48,003 nucleotides of DNA from NCBI GenBank assembly GCA_017937655.1, contig JAGBDE010000010.1, forward strand, positions 1 to 48,003. Direction: 5' to 3'. Under the pieces are notes generated by a model. It made no database searches, was not told where the DNA came from, and saw only the letters and a list, made by a program, of their open reading frames with translations. A program made the translations under genes and the position numbers. This document shows positions 39,364 through 46,677 of the stretch, piece after piece (the stretch's first letter is position 1; every line of letters begins with the position of its first letter). The stretch comes from Clostridia bacterium. GTDB taxonomy: Bacteria > Bacillota > Clostridia > Christensenellales > Aristaeellaceae.

Positions 39364-40314
39364 TTACTTAGCCTCGTTCTTCAAGCACAGGGCGACCCAT
39401 TCGCCCTTCTCGATGCGGTCATGCAGGGTGTAACCCGCTTCCAGAGCGGCGTCCATGACCTGCTGTTCCTTCTCCCGGATGATGCCGGAGCAGATGAGCA
39501 GACCGTCCTTTTCCAGGTGGCGGGTCATGGGGCCGGCCAGCATGCAGATGGCGTCAGCCACGATATTGGCCACAGCCAGGTCGCAGGGCATGGCTTCGCT
39601 CTTGCAAAGGTCGCCCACCACCACACGGATCTGTTCCTCCACGCCGTTCAGGGCCACGTTTTCCTTGGCCACCTTCACGGCGTCCGGGTCGATGTCAATG
39701 GCCAGGATATCCTTGGCGTTCAGCTTGGCGGCGGCGATGGCCAGAATGCCGCTGCCGGTGCCCACGTCCATCACCCGCATGCCGTCGGCCAGATAACGTT
39801 CCAGCAGCTGCATGCACATGTTGGTGGTTTCGTGGGTGCCGGTGCCGAAAGCCATGCCGGGATCCAGCTCAATGACCAGGTCGTCAGGCTGCACGGCGTA
39901 GTCCTCCCAGGTGGGCTTCACCACCAGGTGGCTGCCGATGCGGAAGGGCTTATAATACTTCTTCCACTCTTCGGCCCAGTCCTCGTCCTTCACGTTGTCC
40001 TGGTCAATTTTCAGGCTGCCCAGATCCACGCCCAAATCCATGGCGGCATACATCTGAAGCTGCTCCTTCAGCGCGGCCACGGTCTCGTCCACATCGGAAT
40101 CCTGCTCAAACCATCCCTTGACCACAACGTCCTCGGGCATGTTTTCCAGCAGCTTTTTATCGTACAGTTCCCAGTACACGCCGGGCTTGTCCGGATCGGG
40201 AACGTCATTGCGATCCTTGATCTCCGTGCCCAGAGCGCCCAGCTCCATCAGCACGCCGCTGACAAGATCCGCGCCCTCGGTGGTGGTATGTACGCTGATT
40301 TCACGCCATTGCAT
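39364..40314 (-). CDS. prmA: Ribosomal protein L11 methyltransferase
   Basis: PrmA trimethylates lysines and the N-terminus of ribosomal protein L11. The 316-residue product has an N-terminal L11-recognition domain (MQWREISVHTTTEGADLVSG) with an acidic insert near residues 85-105. The catalytic domain has MAFGTGTHETT, the SAM motif VMDVGTGSGILAIAAA and NIVADAI. ATG at 40314 has GGAGG 7-8 bases upstream. It starts 21 bases after the phosphodiester-glycosidase-like gene, with no terminator between, so the island promoter may drive it. Confidence 0.95.
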   Translation of the reverse strand: MQWREISVHTTTEGADLVSGVLMELGALGTEIKDRNDVPDPDKPGVYWELYDKKLLENMPEDVVVKGWFEQDSDVDETVAALKEQLQMYAAMDLGVDLGSLKIDQDNVKDEDWAEEWKKYYKPFRIGSHLVVKPTWEDYAVQPDDLVIELDPGMAFGTGTHETTNMCMQLLERYLADGMRVMDVGTGSGILAIAAAKLNAKDILAIDIDPDAVKVAKENVALNGVEEQIRVVVGDLCKSEAMPCDLAVANIVADAICMLAGPMTRHLEKDGLLICSGIIREKEQQVMDAALEAGYTLHDRIEKGEWVALCLKNEAK

Positions 40315-40335
40315 GTTTGTTCCTCCATTCGCGCA

Positions 40336-41226
40336 TCATTCGTCGGCGATGCTAGCAAAGTAAAGAATATCGCAGATAGACCGGGAGCTGCTGTTGGAAT
40401 TGAGGGTCTTATCCAAGTAAACCACATGGGCCGATCCACCGCCGTCCAGATTGTAGGCGATCTGCGCATCAGGGATGATCTCCTTGATGGCAACGGCAAA
40501 TTTCTTGAGATTGATTCCCACAGTGGAGTCGGTCTTACCGTCCGCCTGCACAATGGCATAGCTCAGCGGGCCCCGCTGCACGATAGCAACGCGCTGCTGC
40601 TTTTTGGTGGACTGATAGAATTTGGTTTCAGGTTCCAGCACAACGCCATCCTGAATCAGAATGGGTCCAAAGTTAAAGGAATTGACCACAAAGCGGCCTT
40701 CTTCCATATTGGCGATATACTGATTGATATCGTCCAAGGTAGGAAGGGTAAGAACGTGGAAATCGCCCATGTTGTCAATGAGCAGCACATCGTGCTCAGC
40801 ATCAGGACGCTCACGAAGCAGCTGACACTGGCGAACCAGGTAGCCAAAATCGTTATACTTGAAGAAATCGCCATTAACGCAGACGATGCTATTCACACTC
40901 TTTGCAATAATCTTTGTCTTCACATAGCGGTGGTCATCGTAGGTGCCATAGCTGGCGGCGGTGCGGATCTGGGAGGGATCCACAATGTCCACATATGCCA
41001 CGATGTACTTCAGGCCGTTATGACGAAATCTTTCCACCTTCACATGGATGGACTCATCCTTGTACTCCAGCTTATCCTCGCCCAACCGATTTTCCTTCTT
41101 CCAGGGATGGGTGGCGCCCACATCGCTGTCCAGGGGCAGGGGCGTAATGCTGGCGCTAGCGATGCTTGCAGAAAACAGCAGTATCACGCCAAGCAAAAGG
41201 GCAATCCAATGATTCAACTTTTTCAT
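40336..41226 (-). CDS. Secreted phosphodiester glycosidase-like (NAGPA domain) protein, copy 2
   Basis: A 296-residue protein with a signal peptide (residues 1-25, MKKLNHWIALLLGVILLFSA then ASA) and an NAGPA-type domain. This domain uncovers GlcNAc-1-phosphodiesters in animals and occurs in bacterial surface proteins. Visible motifs are VCVNGDFF near residue 107, FGPILIQDGVV, and the glycine-rich AYNLDGGGSAHVVY near 265. It begins 1 base after the stop of a paralogue with the same order of motifs. Substrate and activity are unknown. Last gene of the exported island, leading into prmA. Confidence 0.8.
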   Translation of the reverse strand: MKKLNHWIALLLGVILLFSASIASASITPLPLDSDVGATHPWKKENRLGEDKLEYKDESIHVKVERFRHNGLKYIVAYVDIVDPSQIRTAASYGTYDDHRYVKTKIIAKSVNSIVCVNGDFFKYNDFGYLVRQCQLLRERPDAEHDVLLIDNMGDFHVLTLPTLDDINQYIANMEEGRFVVNSFNFGPILIQDGVVLEPETKFYQSTKKQQRVAIVQRGPLSYAIVQADGKTDSTVGINLKKFAVAIKEIIPDAQIAYNLDGGGSAHVVYLDKTLNSNSSSRSICDILYFASIADE

Positions 41227-41227
41227 C

Positions 41228-42154
41228 TTACTTTTCCTCACCTTCGCTGGGGATTGCGGTGGCAAAATAGAGAATATCGCCCACGGAGCGCATTTTCAGC
41301 GCCTTCTGGCCATTCATTTTGGTGTAGTTCAGCAGCATGGTGGTGGAGGTGCCGCCGTCCAGGTTGTATGCGTTGATGCAGCCCAGGTCATACATCAGCT
41401 GAGCGATCTGCTGATGCGTGAATCCCACAGAGTTTTTCTCCATGGGGCCATCTGTGGCAACAAGAACATACTGCAACGGGCCAAGCTGACCAAACGCTGT
41501 GCGCTGCTTATATTTCGGCCTGCGGTCAATTTCGCACATTTCGCCATCAATCACAAGCGCAGGGCCAAAGCAAAAAGATGTTACAATCTCTTCATCAAGC
41601 GCGTCAACACCTTCACGGGTGAGAGGCGCAACAATGTGAAAGTCGCCGTTCACATCAATAAAGAGTCCATCGTATTCTTCATTCGGACGATCGCGCAAAA
41701 GCTCTCCTTTACGGTAAATAACACCGGCATTATGGTAGACAAACCAGTCAGCATTTGTGCAGAAAACCGCATTTACCCTACGAGCAATCTCGCTGACGCC
41801 AATGGTTGTCTGGGAAGGATATTTTCGTGCCTGTTCCGTACGGAGCTGACTGGGATGTGCAATTTGCACAAAAGCGACAGCCACAGGCGTATCATATACT
41901 CTAATTTTATGAACCTTTACATCCAAGGAATCATCATGATAAGAAAAACCATCCTCGGAAAAACAAGCAGGATTTCCAACATATTTCATGTCTTCCTTAA
42001 TAGGAAGCGGCTGAACATAGTCCGGAAATTCCACGGGAGTCATGGTAGGCAGCGGATAAGTGTCTTCCAGTTCCTCGCCAACGGCGGGCAGGGCCGGAAT
42101 CAACAGAACTGCCAGCATCACAAGGACAAGGCTCCGTTTCAGTAGTTTCTTCAT
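41228..42154 (-). CDS. Secreted phosphodiester glycosidase-like (NAGPA domain) protein, copy 1
   Basis: A 308-residue paralogue of the next gene. It has a signal peptide (about 1-26) and an NAGPA domain with CTNADWFVYHNAG in place of VNGDFF, FGPALVIDGEM, and YNLDGGTSTTMLL near residue 265. A Pro/Tyr-rich stretch (residues 30-55) follows the signal. The two copies share layout (HPSQLRT/DPSQIRT, LLRDRPNEEYD/LLRERPDAEHD, GDILYFA near the end) but are strongly diverged. The middle of the gene is visibly more AT-rich than the surrounding genes. ATG at 42154 has AAAGGA upstream. Confidence 0.8.
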   Translation of the reverse strand: MKKLLKRSLVLVMLAVLLIPALPAVGEELEDTYPLPTMTPVEFPDYVQPLPIKEDMKYVGNPACFSEDGFSYHDDSLDVKVHKIRVYDTPVAVAFVQIAHPSQLRTEQARKYPSQTTIGVSEIARRVNAVFCTNADWFVYHNAGVIYRKGELLRDRPNEEYDGLFIDVNGDFHIVAPLTREGVDALDEEIVTSFCFGPALVIDGEMCEIDRRPKYKQRTAFGQLGPLQYVLVATDGPMEKNSVGFTHQQIAQLMYDLGCINAYNLDGGTSTTMLLNYTKMNGQKALKMRSVGDILYFATAIPSEGEEK

Positions 42155-42191
42155 AAAATAGCATTTCCTTTCGTTTTCGTTACAAAGGAGG

Positions 42192-43166
42192 TTAAGCGGC
42201 CAGAGTTTCCTCTTTGGAGTAGCTCAGATGGCGGATGGCCAGCACGCATCCCAGGATGACGGCGCAGCAGGCGGTCATGACCAGGTAGCACTGGGCAGGG
42301 GTCTCCAAGAACTGCAGGAAGGGAATACGGCCCTCGGTGGCAAACTCCAGCAGCAGGCACAGGGCCACCATTACAAAGAACAGCACCATCCACAGGGTCT
42401 TGGCAAGATTGTGGCCGGTATTTTTGCCCCGCACCAGGTAGATGACCAGCACAGTCAGCAGCAACACGCCGCTGAACAGCTCGGAGCAACGCACGAAACC
42501 CCAGCGGAGGAAGTCGTCCCGGCGGAGGCTCTCGAAGATGATTTGTGCGCTGGCATACATGCCCAAGCCCAGCAGCGCCCGATCGCCCGCAGGCTGACGG
42601 CCCTTCATGCACAGGGTGATCACGAAAATCGGCAGCGCCCATACAGCTTCACCGGCAAACAGGGCCCAGTTCCAGCTCTCGTAGTAGGGATCATACGTAG
42701 CGAAGGGGAAACGGCAGAAGCCATTGATCTCCTCGATGTACTCGCCGTAGCCCTGGCCAAAATAGCCTTCCGCCAGGCGAACCGCCACGATGAACAGGAA
42801 ACCGGCGGGAGCAAAGCCATCGGCGATCTTGCCAAGCTTCACGCCGGAGGCCTTAGCAGCAATGATCAGCGCCAGGAACACGCCCAACATGCCGCCGTAG
42901 AGCATGTGCTTGCCAGCGGAGAAGTCGAAAAATGCAGCAATTCCCAGATCAGAAATCACAAAACTCAGTTGCATTAGGCAGTAAAACAGATGGGAAAACA
43001 GGCAACCAAGCACCGGAGAAAGCACGGCAGCCAGGACAATTCCCTTACCATTTACGCCTTCCTTGCGCATCAGCAGCGCAGCCAGGACCAGCGCCAGCGC
43101 CAGGCCGACTACCAGCGTAATGATCACTGCGGTCATATTGGGTTCACCGATGGAAAACTGAAACAT
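42192..43166 (-). CDS. Lgt-like multi-pass membrane protein
   Basis: A 324-residue protein with about seven or eight hydrophobic helices. Pattern and helix order resemble prolipoprotein diacylglyceryl transferase (Lgt): HMLYGGMLG, GFLFIVAVRLAEGYFGQGYGE where Lgt has its RxGNFxNGExxG signature, and FESLRRDDFLRWGF near the C-terminal third. The Arg and the last Gly of the signature remain, but the Asn and Glu positions differ (AEG, GQG), and it has additional C-terminal helices. It may be a paralogue with a changed substrate rather than the housekeeping Lgt. It sits inside the exported island. Confidence 0.6.
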   Translation of the reverse strand: MFQFSIGEPNMTAVIITLVVGLALALVLAALLMRKEGVNGKGIVLAAVLSPVLGCLFSHLFYCLMQLSFVISDLGIAAFFDFSAGKHMLYGGMLGVFLALIIAAKASGVKLGKIADGFAPAGFLFIVAVRLAEGYFGQGYGEYIEEINGFCRFPFATYDPYYESWNWALFAGEAVWALPIFVITLCMKGRQPAGDRALLGLGMYASAQIIFESLRRDDFLRWGFVRCSELFSGVLLLTVLVIYLVRGKNTGHNLAKTLWMVLFFVMVALCLLLEFATEGRIPFLQFLETPAQCYLVMTACCAVILGCVLAIRHLSYSKEETLAA

Positions 43167-43198
43167 TCAGATCATCCTTTCCGTATATTCTGATGGAT

Positions 43199-44200
43199 TT
43201 ACTCGGGTACGGTTTCGTCAAAAGTGATATATTCGTTGGAATGGAAAACATAGTAAAGCACTTCGTACCGCGGATGATTACGCCAACCGTATCCGGTGCT
43301 TCCGGTAGAATAAATGATCTCGGTATTGGGAAATGCATCCTCAATTTCCTTGCGGACTTCCTTGGTGATACCGTTTTCCCCGTACCAAAGCCGCTCAATG
43401 TTAGGGCAGGTTTTGAGGGGCGTCCAATCCTTGGCCTTGTTGTAGGTCAGGTTCAAATCCAGCAGGTTGGGGTTACCAGACAGGGGCGTCAAATCGCTGA
43501 TCCTGTTCATGAACAGTTCTGCGTATTCCAGGTGTTTCAGATTTGCCAACGGAGAAATATCCGTGATCTTGTTATCCGCCAGGATCAGGATGCGCAGCTC
43601 TGTCAGTTCGCCGATGAAACTGATGTCCTTAATGGCGTTGTGGCCCAAATCCAGGGCTTTCAGTTGGTAGCAGTAACGCAGATTCTCAAAATGCTCCGTC
43701 TTAAAACGGCGGCTGTCTTCTGTCTTCAGCGTGGTAAAGACCGAAGCGTCCGTGCGGACAAACCAGCGGCCCACGTGCAGCGTCCAGCCAAAACGAATGT
43801 CCGGATAGGATTCAAAGAGTTCCGCCATGTACTCATCGGGCAGCTCGTTGTCAAACATGTCCACCTTGGTGAGGGCGGGCAGGCAGGGCAGCTTTTGCCT
43901 GACCTCTTCCAGCTGTTCCGGGGTGAGTTCGCCCTCCAGAACCAGCTCCGTGGCATCGCTGGAAACGTCCACGCCGCAGACGTTCAGGGTGTAGCCAAAC
44001 TCCGCGTCGGGGTACTTCTCCAGCAGGGCAGTCAGCGTCTCCGGCGCAAGAATATCGCCGGTCAGTTCCACCTTTTCTCCGGGATGATCCGCCATCCATG
44101 CTTCCACATCGGCCGCGGTGTCAAAATCCGCCGACGCGGCAACAGGCAGAACCATCAGCAGCAAAGCAAGGCAAAGCTTAATCCAGAGGGATGTTTTCAA
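43199..44200 (-). CDS. Secreted leucine-rich-repeat protein
   Basis: A 333-residue exported protein with a signal peptide (KTSLWIKLCLALLLMVLPVA, cleavage after ASA). Residues 30-150 contain two weakly similar segments (LTALLEKYPDAEFGYTLNVCG; AELFESYPDIRFGWTLHVG). Residues 165-275 hold five leucine-rich repeats of the 22-residue SDS22/internalin type (LKALDLGHNAIKDISFIGEL, LRILILADNKITDISPLANL and so on). Such repeats bind proteins. The start is probably TTG at 44200, 8 bases after AGGCGG; GTG at 44209 is the alternative. Both overlap the end of the deacetylase gene. Confidence 0.85.
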   Translation of the reverse strand: MKTSLWIKLCLALLLMVLPVAASADFDTAADVEAWMADHPGEKVELTGDILAPETLTALLEKYPDAEFGYTLNVCGVDVSSDATELVLEGELTPEQLEEVRQKLPCLPALTKVDMFDNELPDEYMAELFESYPDIRFGWTLHVGRWFVRTDASVFTTLKTEDSRRFKTEHFENLRYCYQLKALDLGHNAIKDISFIGELTELRILILADNKITDISPLANLKHLEYAELFMNRISDLTPLSGNPNLLDLNLTYNKAKDWTPLKTCPNIERLWYGENGITKEVRKEIEDAFPNTEIIYSTGSTGYGWRNHPRYEVLYYVFHSNEYITFDETVPE

Positions 44201-45386
44201 ACAGATCACCGCCTATCACATCCTCGCCCACGGTGGAGCCGTACAGACCGAAGATGGCGTTATCGTACAGGCCGCCGTTGCGAACCACAAACCGGAACAC
44301 GCGGCCCTTGGTATCCTTGATGGAGTCCCCTACCTGGCTTTCGTGGCAGTCAAAGGCTTCCTTGGCCACCTCCAGGGAGGTTCGTCCGCCGAAATAGTCC
44401 AGGGGGATGTTCCAGTCAAAGGATTGCTGGTTTTCCTCCCACAGGTGCAGGTACAGCTTGGCGGGCTGCCAGGCCGGGCCGCAATCCGGGCGGACGTCCG
44501 GGTTGCCCACGTTGTCATAAATGTACATGCCGAGCTCGGCCGCCGTCTTGTGAGCGCCGTGGCCGTACTCGCCGTTGATGTCGTGGGTCACGATCACCTG
44601 GGGCTGATACTGCCGCACCAGGCGGATGAAGTAGCTTTCCAGCTCCTCCTGGCCCCACACCTCGTAGAAGCGGCGGACGGTACTGGCGCGGAAGTCCTTG
44701 CGGTTCTCCGCTATAGGATAGTTGCGGATGCCCGCCGTCCACAGGCCGTTGAGCAGTTCTTCCATGCGCAGGGGGCGGGAGTAGGTCAGGTAGACCACCT
44801 GCACGTCCACGTCCTCCCGGGCCGCGTAGGTGGGGATCATGCCGCCCAGGAAGATGTACTCGTCGTCCGGGTGGGCGCTGAGGATCATCAGGTCGCAGCG
44901 GTCGATGGTCTTCCACTCGTGGACTTCCGGGGGCAGAGTGCCCTGGCCGTAGGGAGTCAGCTCCAGCATGCTCAGGCTAGCCTTGCCTTTCTCCGCCCGG
45001 CGGACGATGCGCAGATCCGTCAGCCCATCCAGATGCACCACTTCCTGGGCAAAACCGTCCAGGCCGTACTCCCCTGCGTCCACCCACTGGTCGTTTTCCA
45101 GGGTCTGGAGCGTCCAGGGTTCCTGGGGGCCAAACCACTGAATGTACAGCGCGTGGATGGTTTCCTGAGAGTGAAGCTCAATAAATGCCTCTCCCTTTTT
45201 TTCCGTGGTGAATGCGCTGCGGGAGGTTCCGTTGGTCAGATAGCGCATATCCTCCGTGGTTGAGGCGTCGAAAACGGTGACGGACTGCAGGTTTTTGGCA
45301 TATTCCTCTGCGGCTGCCGGAAATGTAATGCCGCAAAGCAGCAAACCAAGGGTCAATACGGTGGCCAGGATTCTACGTTTCATCAT
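44178..45386 (-). CDS. Secreted PIG-L (LmbE-type) zinc deacetylase
   Basis: A 402-residue exported protein. Residues 1-26 are a signal peptide. Residues 30-145 look like a discoidin/F5-8-type beta-sandwich (IHALYIQWFGPQEPWTLQTL; LTDLRIVRRAEKGKASLSML). Residues 160-400 are a PIG-L deacetylase with the zinc motif AHPDDE at 171-176, HDINGEYGHGAHK holding the further histidine, and QPQVIVTHD. Family members remove acetyl groups from GlcNAc in GPI precursors, mycothiol/bacillithiol intermediates or antibiotics. A signal peptide means this one acts outside the membrane, unlike BshB or MshB. It is first in the island, after its own promoter. Confidence 0.88.
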   Translation of the reverse strand: MMKRRILATVLTLGLLLCGITFPAAAEEYAKNLQSVTVFDASTTEDMRYLTNGTSRSAFTTEKKGEAFIELHSQETIHALYIQWFGPQEPWTLQTLENDQWVDAGEYGLDGFAQEVVHLDGLTDLRIVRRAEKGKASLSMLELTPYGQGTLPPEVHEWKTIDRCDLMILSAHPDDEYIFLGGMIPTYAAREDVDVQVVYLTYSRPLRMEELLNGLWTAGIRNYPIAENRKDFRASTVRRFYEVWGQEELESYFIRLVRQYQPQVIVTHDINGEYGHGAHKTAAELGMYIYDNVGNPDVRPDCGPAWQPAKLYLHLWEENQQSFDWNIPLDYFGGRTSLEVAKEAFDCHESQVGDSIKDTKGRVFRFVVRNGGLYDNAIFGLYGSTVGEDVIGGDLFENIPLD

Positions 45387-45446: not shown

Positions 45447-45476
45447 ATTATAGCATATTTATGCCTGTTAAGTCTA
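45447..45476 (-). promoter_or_regulatory. Promoter of the exported island
   Basis: Minus strand: TAGACT, 18 bases, TATAAT preceded by TGC (extended -10). An inverted repeat GCATA-TT-TATGC (45453-45464) touches the -10 and fills part of the spacer, so a regulator could bind there. Confidence 0.7.
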
Positions 45477-45511: not shown

Positions 45512-45551
45512 AAAAAACCCTGCCGGAGTGCGGGCTTGCACTTTGGCAGGG
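45512..45551 (-). terminator. Terminator after dnaJ
   Basis: Minus strand: CCCTGCC...GGCAGGG with an inner AGTGC/GCACT stem, then TTTTTT. It isolates dnaK-dnaJ from the following island. Confidence 0.93.
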
Positions 45552-45564
45552 AGATGGATGAAAA

Positions 45565-46677
45565 TCAATTGTTGAACAGGTTGCGCAGCTTTTCCGCAAA
45601 GGAACGGTTTTTCTCGTATTCCTTGCCGGTCATGCTGGTTTCCAGCTGACGGAGCAGTTCCTTCTGCTTGTCGTTCAGGCGCTGGGGGGTTTCTACGTTC
45701 ACGGTCAGGAGCAAGTCGCCCTTTGTGCCGCCGCGCAGGGAGGGAATGCCCTGGCCCTTGATGCGGAAGGTGGTGCCGGTTTGGGTGCCCTCGGGGATGC
45801 GATGCTTGACAGGCTTTTCCAGGGTAGGCACGTCGATCTCTGCGCCCAGGGCCGCCTGGGTAAAGCTAATGGGCATATCCAGCAGGATGTTGTTGCCCTC
45901 CCGCTTGAACAGCTTGTGGGGCTTTACCGTTACGGTGATGTACAGATCGCCGGCAGGGCCGCCCCGCATACCGGGCTCGCCCTCGCCCCGCTTGACCAGG
46001 CTGACGCCGTCCTGCACGCCCGCGGGGATGCGCAGGGTCAGGGTACGCTTCTTGCGCACATGGCCGGAGCCGTGGCAGTCCGCGCACTTTTCCTTGACGA
46101 TCTTGCCTTCGCCCCGGCAGTTGGGACAGGTCTGCACCGTCATCATGAAACCGTTGCTGGCGCGCACCTGGCCGGAACCCTTACAGGTGGGACAGGTCTG
46201 GGGCTGGGTGCCCTTCTTGGCGCCGCTGCCGCCGCAGGTCTCGCAGTTTTCGTTGCGGAAAAAGTCGATGACCTTCTCGCAGCCAAAGGCGGCTTCCTCA
46301 AAGGTGATCTGCAGGCGGTGCTGCAGATCGTTGCCCTGAACGGGGCCGTTTCTGCGTCCGCCGCCGAAGCCGCCGCCAAAGAAGGAATCGAAAATGCTCT
46401 CGAACCCGCCCATACCGCCAAAGCCGTTGAAATCAAAGCCACCGCCGCCCATTGGCGGGCCGTCAAAGCCGAACTGGTCGTACCGGGCGCGCTTTTCCGC
46501 GTCGCTGAGCACCTCGTTGGCCTCGTTCAGCTCCTTGAAGCGCTCCTCTGCGTTCTTGTCATCGGGATGCAGATCGGGGTGGCACTCCTTGGCCTTTTTG
46601 CGATATGCGCTTTTGATCTCGGCCTCAGTGGCGTTTTTCGCCACGCCAAGCACCTCATAATAGTCTCGCTTTGCCAA
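45565..46677 (-). CDS. dnaJ: Chaperone protein DnaJ
   Basis: The 370-residue co-chaperone that delivers unfolded proteins to DnaK and stimulates its ATPase. The J domain has the HPD triad (KECHPDLHPDDK). A Gly/Phe-rich segment (about 75-110) follows, then four zinc repeats of CxxCxGxG type (CETCGGSG, CPTCKGSG, CPNCRGEG, CADCHGSG) and the two C-terminal substrate domains. The N-terminus AKRDYYEVLGV is canonical, yet its first codon is TTG at 46677 with AGGTGAG close upstream. It follows dnaK with a hairpin between. Confidence 0.96.
   Translation of the reverse strand: MAKRDYYEVLGVAKNATEAEIKSAYRKKAKECHPDLHPDDKNAEERFKELNEANEVLSDAEKRARYDQFGFDGPPMGGGGFDFNGFGGMGGFESIFDSFFGGGFGGGRRNGPVQGNDLQHRLQITFEEAAFGCEKVIDFFRNENCETCGGSGAKKGTQPQTCPTCKGSGQVRASNGFMMTVQTCPNCRGEGKIVKEKCADCHGSGHVRKKRTLTLRIPAGVQDGVSLVKRGEGEPGMRGGPAGDLYITVTVKPHKLFKREGNNILLDMPISFTQAALGAEIDVPTLEKPVKHRIPEGTQTGTTFRIKGQGIPSLRGGTKGDLLLTVNVETPQRLNDKQKELLRQLETSMTGKEYEKNRSFAEKLRNLFNN

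Follow-up and report, generated by a model that had tools for sequence, protein, structure and literature searches.

A lineage-specific pairing of an altered Lgt-like membrane protein with putative phosphodiester glycosidases in a family of Clostridia

The first 48,003 nucleotides of contig JAGBDE010000010.1 (assembly GCA_017937655.1), from a Clostridia bacterium of the Aristaeellaceae and called the window here, raise the question of whether the genes lying between dnaJ and prmA belong together and, if so, what they do. Five open reading frames (ORFs), all on the minus strand, fill this interval and encode a PIG-L-type de-N-acetylase, a leucine-rich repeat (LRR) protein, a membrane protein resembling the prolipoprotein diacylglyceryl transferase Lgt, and two proteins of the NAGPA phosphodiester glycosidase family, NAGPA-1 and NAGPA-2. 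A first-pass annotation had regarded the five as a single set acting on an extracellular glycoconjugate. By computation, we found that one part of this proposal stands, in that the Lgt-like/NAGPA pair is conserved, whereas the PIG-L and LRR genes are optional and are tied to it less tightly.

The Lgt-like protein was searched against 120 genomes of the host's bacterial family, 97 of which gave matches (up to 7 per genome, genuine lgt possibly included). Neighborhoods were taken, among the matches listed, from 30 plus 30 automatic loci, 21 longer loci, 60 further regions and 5 others, and scanning these with profiles of the four families yielded 126 distinct Lgt-like genes from 72 genomes. A NAGPA gene lay on the same strand within 300 bp in 112 of the 126, and as a control, none of the 15 genuine lgt genes of the genus (L205-L219) was near a NAGPA, LRR or PIG-L gene in the DNA covered. 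The NAGPA gene came first in 97 of 111 pairs and the Lgt-like gene, as in the window, in 9, with flanking NAGPA genes in the other 5; the median gap was 3 nt, and 36 of the 111 pairs overlapped, an upper bound given that starts were taken from the longest ORF. Across these pairs, distances among the NAGPA proteins correlated with those among their Lgt-like partners (r = 0.80). Shuffling the partners inside each genome, which keeps the species history, gave a mean r of 0.30 (standard deviation, 0.05; maximum, 0.525), and none of 1000 shuffles reached the observed value; 87 of the 111 pairs came from genomes with two or more pairs. The partners are cognate and co-evolve paralogue by paralogue. 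Because of this co-evolution, and of the adjacency in 112 of 126 against 0 of 15 genuine lgt, the grouping of Lgt-like and NAGPA genes is not chance. The view that the island is a chance collection of unrelated exported genes can point to the five-gene layout, which occurs in few genomes of the genus; however, adjacency, co-evolution and a gene fusion described below refute it for the pair, and we find it scarcely credible.

Sequence comparison and structural modeling mark the Lgt-like protein as an altered form of Lgt, in which an Lgt fold is combined with a changed active site. Its AlphaFold2 model (pLDDT, 94) had a sole Protein Data Bank (PDB) match under an E value of 0.001, Escherichia coli Lgt (5azb; E = 9.6e-6; TM scores, 0.53/0.59). 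Active-site positions were numbered on E. coli Lgt, in an alignment that included the 15 genuine lgt of the genus. The window protein resembles Lgt in its equivalents of R143, E243 and R246 (R130, E212 and R215), which are kept in 112, 119 and 117 of the 126 Lgt-like proteins, respectively. It differs at the R239 position, where Q stands in 111 of 126 (Q208 in the window) and R in only one, against R in 15/15 genuine lgt, and at the N146 position, where E stands in 108 of 126 (E133 in the window), against N in 15/15. E151 is mostly lost, and a C-terminal hairpin carrying E274 (122 of 126), F275 and Y294 has been added; the usual NAGPA neighbor and the several copies per genome further distinguish this branch from Lgt. 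Loss of H103 in the HGGL motif was rejected as proof of changed function: the window has Y there, but so do all 15 genuine lgt of the genus, although H103Y has been reported as inactive in E. coli.

These residues bear on two other accounts of the protein. It might be a second, dedicated prolipoprotein diacylglyceryl transferase serving special surface lipoproteins, since it exceeds the PF01790 gathering score, has the Lgt fold in its model and keeps part of the phosphatidylglycerol (PG) pocket, which in Lgt is lined by R143 and R239 according to Mao et al. (2016; PMC4728403). However, its scores are far under those required of an lgt equivalog (17.5 versus 118.9 bits for TIGR00544; 22.6 versus 334 bits for NF000778), and the genome already holds a genuine lgt (G000:C24; 180.6 bits). 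Moreover, the same paper reports for E. coli that complementation fails with R239A/E/H/K/Q mutants, which include the exchange to Q seen here; it fails likewise with mutants of E243 and R246. By a simple script, lipoboxes are rare: 5 of the 118 NAGPA partners have one, as does 1 of 24 LRR proteins, and none of the window's island proteins does. We judge a second transferase improbable and ordinary lipoprotein lipidation by this protein unlikely; the earlier suggestion that the gene set "perhaps lipidates" its target is weakened by the R239 exchange and by the scarcity of lipoboxes among the partner NAGPAs. The same two observations, and a paralogue-specific co-evolution that suits a binding partner, would fit a catalytically dead Lgt-like protein serving as a membrane anchor or as a folding or export partner, with NAGPA alone doing the chemistry. 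A scaffold would nevertheless have no need of the retained charged equivalents of R143, E243 and R246, and the new pattern of Q at R239, E at N146 and E274 is itself conserved, so that we consider this account unlikely, if a serious one.

The altered branch appears to be bound to its lineage. Among the matches listed from an order-wide sample of 297 genomes, in which at most 7 candidates were scored per genome, those reaching the hairpin were restricted to the host family, and in 39 genomes chosen from other families all 50 matches fell short of it. No match was found in 397 other genomes of the phylum at E <= 1e-45, a strict cut-off that also misses weaker Lgt-like members. On these three comparisons, a wide spread of the branch was rejected.

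The remaining island proteins look competent. The NAGPA profile matched solved structures of DUF2233 and of the uncovering enzyme (PDB 3ohg and 6pki), with which the island proteins share the PF09992 domain and the NLDGG motif, one element among 24 columns invariant in 23 aligned rows; unlike these proteins, they are paired with a cognate membrane protein from the Lgt superfamily, a combination undescribed in the literature that we found. NAGPA-2 is 34% identical to NAGPA-1. In the PIG-L protein, H172, D174, D175, H276 and H279 are invariant in 15/15 aligned relatives, and P173 and E176 are nearly so; we take the conserved H and D residues to be the zinc site. The protein matches MshB, sharing the domain and the H/D motif residues with such deacetylases, but is predicted to be exported, has relatives fused or adjacent to NAGPA and carries an N-terminal, carbohydrate-binding-like part. 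For that part, a weak match was obtained to a 149-residue domain, presumably a CBM32 module, from an alpha-N-acetylglucosaminidase (4a42; E = 1.5e-4). The model of the LRR protein (pLDDT, 91) matches internalin-type LRR domains, and W309, R310 and H312 near its C terminus are invariant. The first-pass claim that four of the five proteins carry signal peptides agrees with a strongly hydrophobic N terminus in four of them, as scored with a simple script rather than a trained signal-peptide predictor.

How the accessory genes relate to the pair was read from flanks of often just 1.5 to 3.5 kb, so that the LRR and PIG-L neighbor counts are lower bounds. At sites other than dnaJ-prmA, L147, L162 and L188 each contain a single cluster with all four families, spread over both strands in L188; the co-occurrence elsewhere that had been set beforehand as a check was thus found. 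Half of the 10 genus PIG-L genes are linked to the other families: two in the island, one beside NAGPA (in G121), and two fused to NAGPA in 725-residue proteins (L220:3394-5571 in G120 and L096:1444-3621 in G130; Pfam was run on one). The fusion lends independent support to the two enzymes acting on one substrate. Nine of 14 genus LRR genes lie beside a NAGPA gene, an Lgt-like gene or both within 1.5-kb flanks. Directly before the nearest Lgt-like genes in G084, G021, G124, G122, G126, G121 and G127, the place of the LRR protein is taken by a C-type-lectin protein, assigned with Pfam in two cases and by sequence similarity in the other five; therefore, the recognition part seems to be exchangeable. 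Other repeated neighbors, namely DUF6273 and PGA_cap proteins, VanW with SH3, and YkuD proteins, suit the cell envelope; GNAT acetyltransferases (7 loci) and others point to no function.

Differing recognition genes beside related Lgt-like genes, cognate pairing and the six or more Lgt-like paralogues of genome G066 would also suit a surface competition or phage-escape module, in which duplicating exoenzymes and their membrane partners edit or shield glycans. No island protein matched the PADLOC anti-phage defense models, however, PHROGs gave nothing beyond weak matches of the LRR and NAGPA proteins to functionally uncharacterized families, and the island has no recombinase ORF. A defense or phage origin was rejected on the PADLOC and PHROGs results, and the module itself we regard as quite improbable.

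Two side observations concern the relatives of the pair. LRR-NAGPA pairs with no Lgt-like gene in the covered DNA occur at L040:5714-7627 (contig C1 of the window's genome; its NAGPA is 59% identical to NAGPA-1) and at L224:5203-7140 (in SIG370, G057). Remote Lgt-profile proteins (E about 1e-23) follow a NAGPA/Lgt-like/NAGPA run at L053:123-1088 and L054:5610-6575; at E 0.01, Pfam gave no match for the L053 protein.

The gene set probably remodels sugar-carrying molecules at the cell surface. The best known NAGPA members act on N-acetylglucosamine (GlcNAc)-1-phosphodiesters, and the best known PIG-L members use as substrate GlcNAc that is linked to inositol or lipid. Because of these substrates, the PG-binding Lgt fold and the GT2-GtrA loci described below, we tentatively favor, at somewhat short of an even chance, an envelope enzyme made of two proteins, specific to this lineage and placed on the outer side of the membrane, that handles a lipid or lipid-anchored polymer bearing a sugar phosphodiester. 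We infer that the two proteins would form a physical complex: a neofunctionalized Lgt paralogue would sit in the membrane, and the exported NAGPA would work on or beside it. The most likely substrate would be a membrane lipid or lipid-anchored wall polymer to which a sugar is attached via a phosphodiester. NAGPA may break, or transfer from, the sugar-1-phosphate bond, and the Lgt-like protein, with some PG-pocket residues kept, may hold or supply the lipid. PIG-L would deacetylate that molecule at its GlcNAc, and target binding would fall to the LRR protein (the C-type lectin in relatives). The first-pass idea of a set that deacetylates and uncaps its glycoconjugate, with the LRR protein as a binding partner, would be compatible with this reading.

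In seven loci from four genera (L164, L175, L181, L187, L198, L201 and L202), a GT2-GtrA protein, identified with Pfam in two of the seven, directly precedes NAGPA and the Lgt-like gene. Three-component glycosylation relies on GT2 and GtrA proteins for the synthesis and flipping of polyprenyl-phosphate sugars (PMC11127046; PMC11898649). A polyprenyl-phosphate sugar is itself a sugar-1-phosphodiester. The likeness of these loci to CsbB-GtcA-YfhO and Gtr systems lies in that GT2-GtrA gene; the difference is that no GT-C gene was found near it in the seven 5- to 8-kb loci, where NAGPA and the Lgt-like gene stand instead and where, among the genes called, only the Lgt-like one has a product with at least 6 membrane segments by a simple hydropathy count. 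By Pfam, none of the five island genes belongs to the set of GT2, GtrA flippase and GT-C. The three-gene runs may represent a new form of three-component glycosylation. A more specific scheme, which we hold to be improbable, has the Lgt-fold protein bind PG while NAGPA, acting as a transglycosidase in place of a GT-C enzyme, moves GlcNAc onto it from a sugar-1-phosphodiester donor, such as a polyprenyl-phosphate, and PIG-L then deacetylates the product to a cationic lipid. The idea of adding GlcNAc to PG followed by deacetylation is shared with glucosaminyl-PG synthesis by gpgSDF of Pseudomonas aeruginosa, for which a cytoplasmic GT4 enzyme, a COG3233 deacetylase and a YbhN-type flippase are predicted (PMC12713373); the island contains no member of these families. 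If true, the scheme would provide an outside route to amino-sugar glycophospholipids, mirroring the synthesis of glycosylphosphatidylinositol anchors on the bacterial outer face.

Several observations weigh against reading the pair, with its accessory genes, as the two-protein envelope enzyme favored here. The Lgt-like protein had no match in 23 of the 120 family genomes, and 14 of the 126 Lgt-like genes lack an adjacent NAGPA gene (in 4 of these cases a NAGPA gene is no more than 2.5 kb away, and one of the 14 genes stops 33 nt short of the locus end). Pairing is one-sided: of the 7 NAGPA matches in the window's genome, 3 adjoin an Lgt-like gene and 4 (L040-L043) have none nearby. An LRR gene lies within 2.5 kb of 26 of the 126 Lgt-like genes and a PIG-L gene of 8, and within 1.5-kb flanks 5 of 10 PIG-L and 5 of 14 LRR genes of the genus have no partner. 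The GT2-GtrA link is confined to 7 of 126 loci and is absent from the window's island, and both the NAGPA and the PIG-L families have several known substrates.

The five-gene layout itself was found in only 2 of 16 genus genomes (of 17 sampled) in which prmA was matched: the window and its nearest relative found, Clostridiales bacterium SIG370 (SVGY01000016, locus L038), where the same five genes occupy the same place. This also counts against the five genes as a fixed unit, and the set was rejected as a conserved unit in favor of the Lgt-like/NAGPA pair. In the other 14 genomes, dnaJ and prmA are 12 to 84 bp apart (in one, dnaJ is cut by the contig end), and the insertion at this site is recent within the genus. 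A mobile element was rejected: there is no recombinase ORF between dnaJ and prmA, nor room for one, and no repeats of at least 18 nt paired at the two island borders were found. As first annotated, the genes are separated by small gaps or overlaps (Table 1): dnaJ to PIG-L, 178 nt; PIG-L/LRR, 32-nt overlap; LRR to Lgt-like, 32 nt; Lgt-like to NAGPA-1, 37 nt; NAGPA-1 to NAGPA-2, 1 nt. The start of NAGPA-2 was taken as ATG; its longest ORF starts at a TTG at 41265. All five proteins exceed the Pfam gathering score, and against SIG370 (67 to 76% protein identity) all five genes gave dN/dS values of 0.07 to 0.16, rough values given saturated dS, as for constrained coding sequence.

Table 1. Positions of the island genes, their flanking genes and the transcription signals in the window
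Feature	Coordinates	Strand	Evidence or remark
PIG-L-type de-N-acetylase, exported (predicted)	44178..45386	-	Pfam PIG-L 50.3 bits vs gathering 28.2
LRR protein, exported (predicted), GTG start	43199..44209	-	Pfam LRR_4 62.3 bits
Lgt-like polytopic membrane protein, altered active site (predicted) and C-terminal hairpin	42192..43166	-	Pfam LGT (PF01790) 44.5 bits vs 24.9
NAGPA-1, exported (predicted) phosphodiester glycosidase, Lgt-like partner	41228..42154	-	PF09992 87.7 bits vs 25
NAGPA-2, second exported (predicted) phosphodiester glycosidase	40336..41226	-	PF09992 62.3 bits vs 25
dnaJ, flanking gene	45565-46677		
prmA, flanking gene	39364-40314		
Intrinsic terminator after dnaJ	45512..45551	-	stem CCCTGCC/GGCAGGG, inner stem, then T run
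Promoter-like site TAGACT-18-TATAAT, TG before -10 (extended -10)	45447..45476	-	precedes first island gene

The proposed separation of the island from dnaJ by a terminator and a promoter of its own was borne out, the latter as a promoter-like site. The terminator after dnaJ has a minimum free energy of -23.6 kcal/mol (z = -4.2) and is followed by TTTTTT; its SIG370 counterpart has a z of -5.2. The promoter-like site is weak evidence alone, as shuffling leads one to expect 3.7 such sites in the region, where 7 were seen, but SIG370 has the identical two hexamers and spacing. Since only 21 nt separate NAGPA-2 from prmA (40314-40336), prmA and the genes after it may be driven by the island promoter in the window and SIG370. 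With the terminator in place, the island may have taken prmA and the downstream genes off the dnaK-dnaJ transcript.

No description of the Lgt-like/NAGPA pair was found in the literature on NAGPA, DUF2233 and combinations of these families, in a search whose coverage mostly excluded subscription papers. The nearest published statements found (PMC11488536 and PMC12419801) concern NAGPA domains fused to other extracellular enzymes. The families are known; what is new within the literature searched is that they pair, that a branch of Lgt is altered and that this branch has expanded in a lineage-bound manner. Lgt has been studied as a one-reaction enzyme and as an antibiotic target, and an Lgt fold that has been duplicated, has exchanged its catalytic arginine and has acquired a fixed new partner offers a natural experiment on what other functions the fold can have. 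Few bacterial NAGPA (DUF2233) proteins have a known role, and the pair gives a handle on them. The pair also suggests that this uncultured family of the Clostridia type has a surface chemistry yet to be studied.

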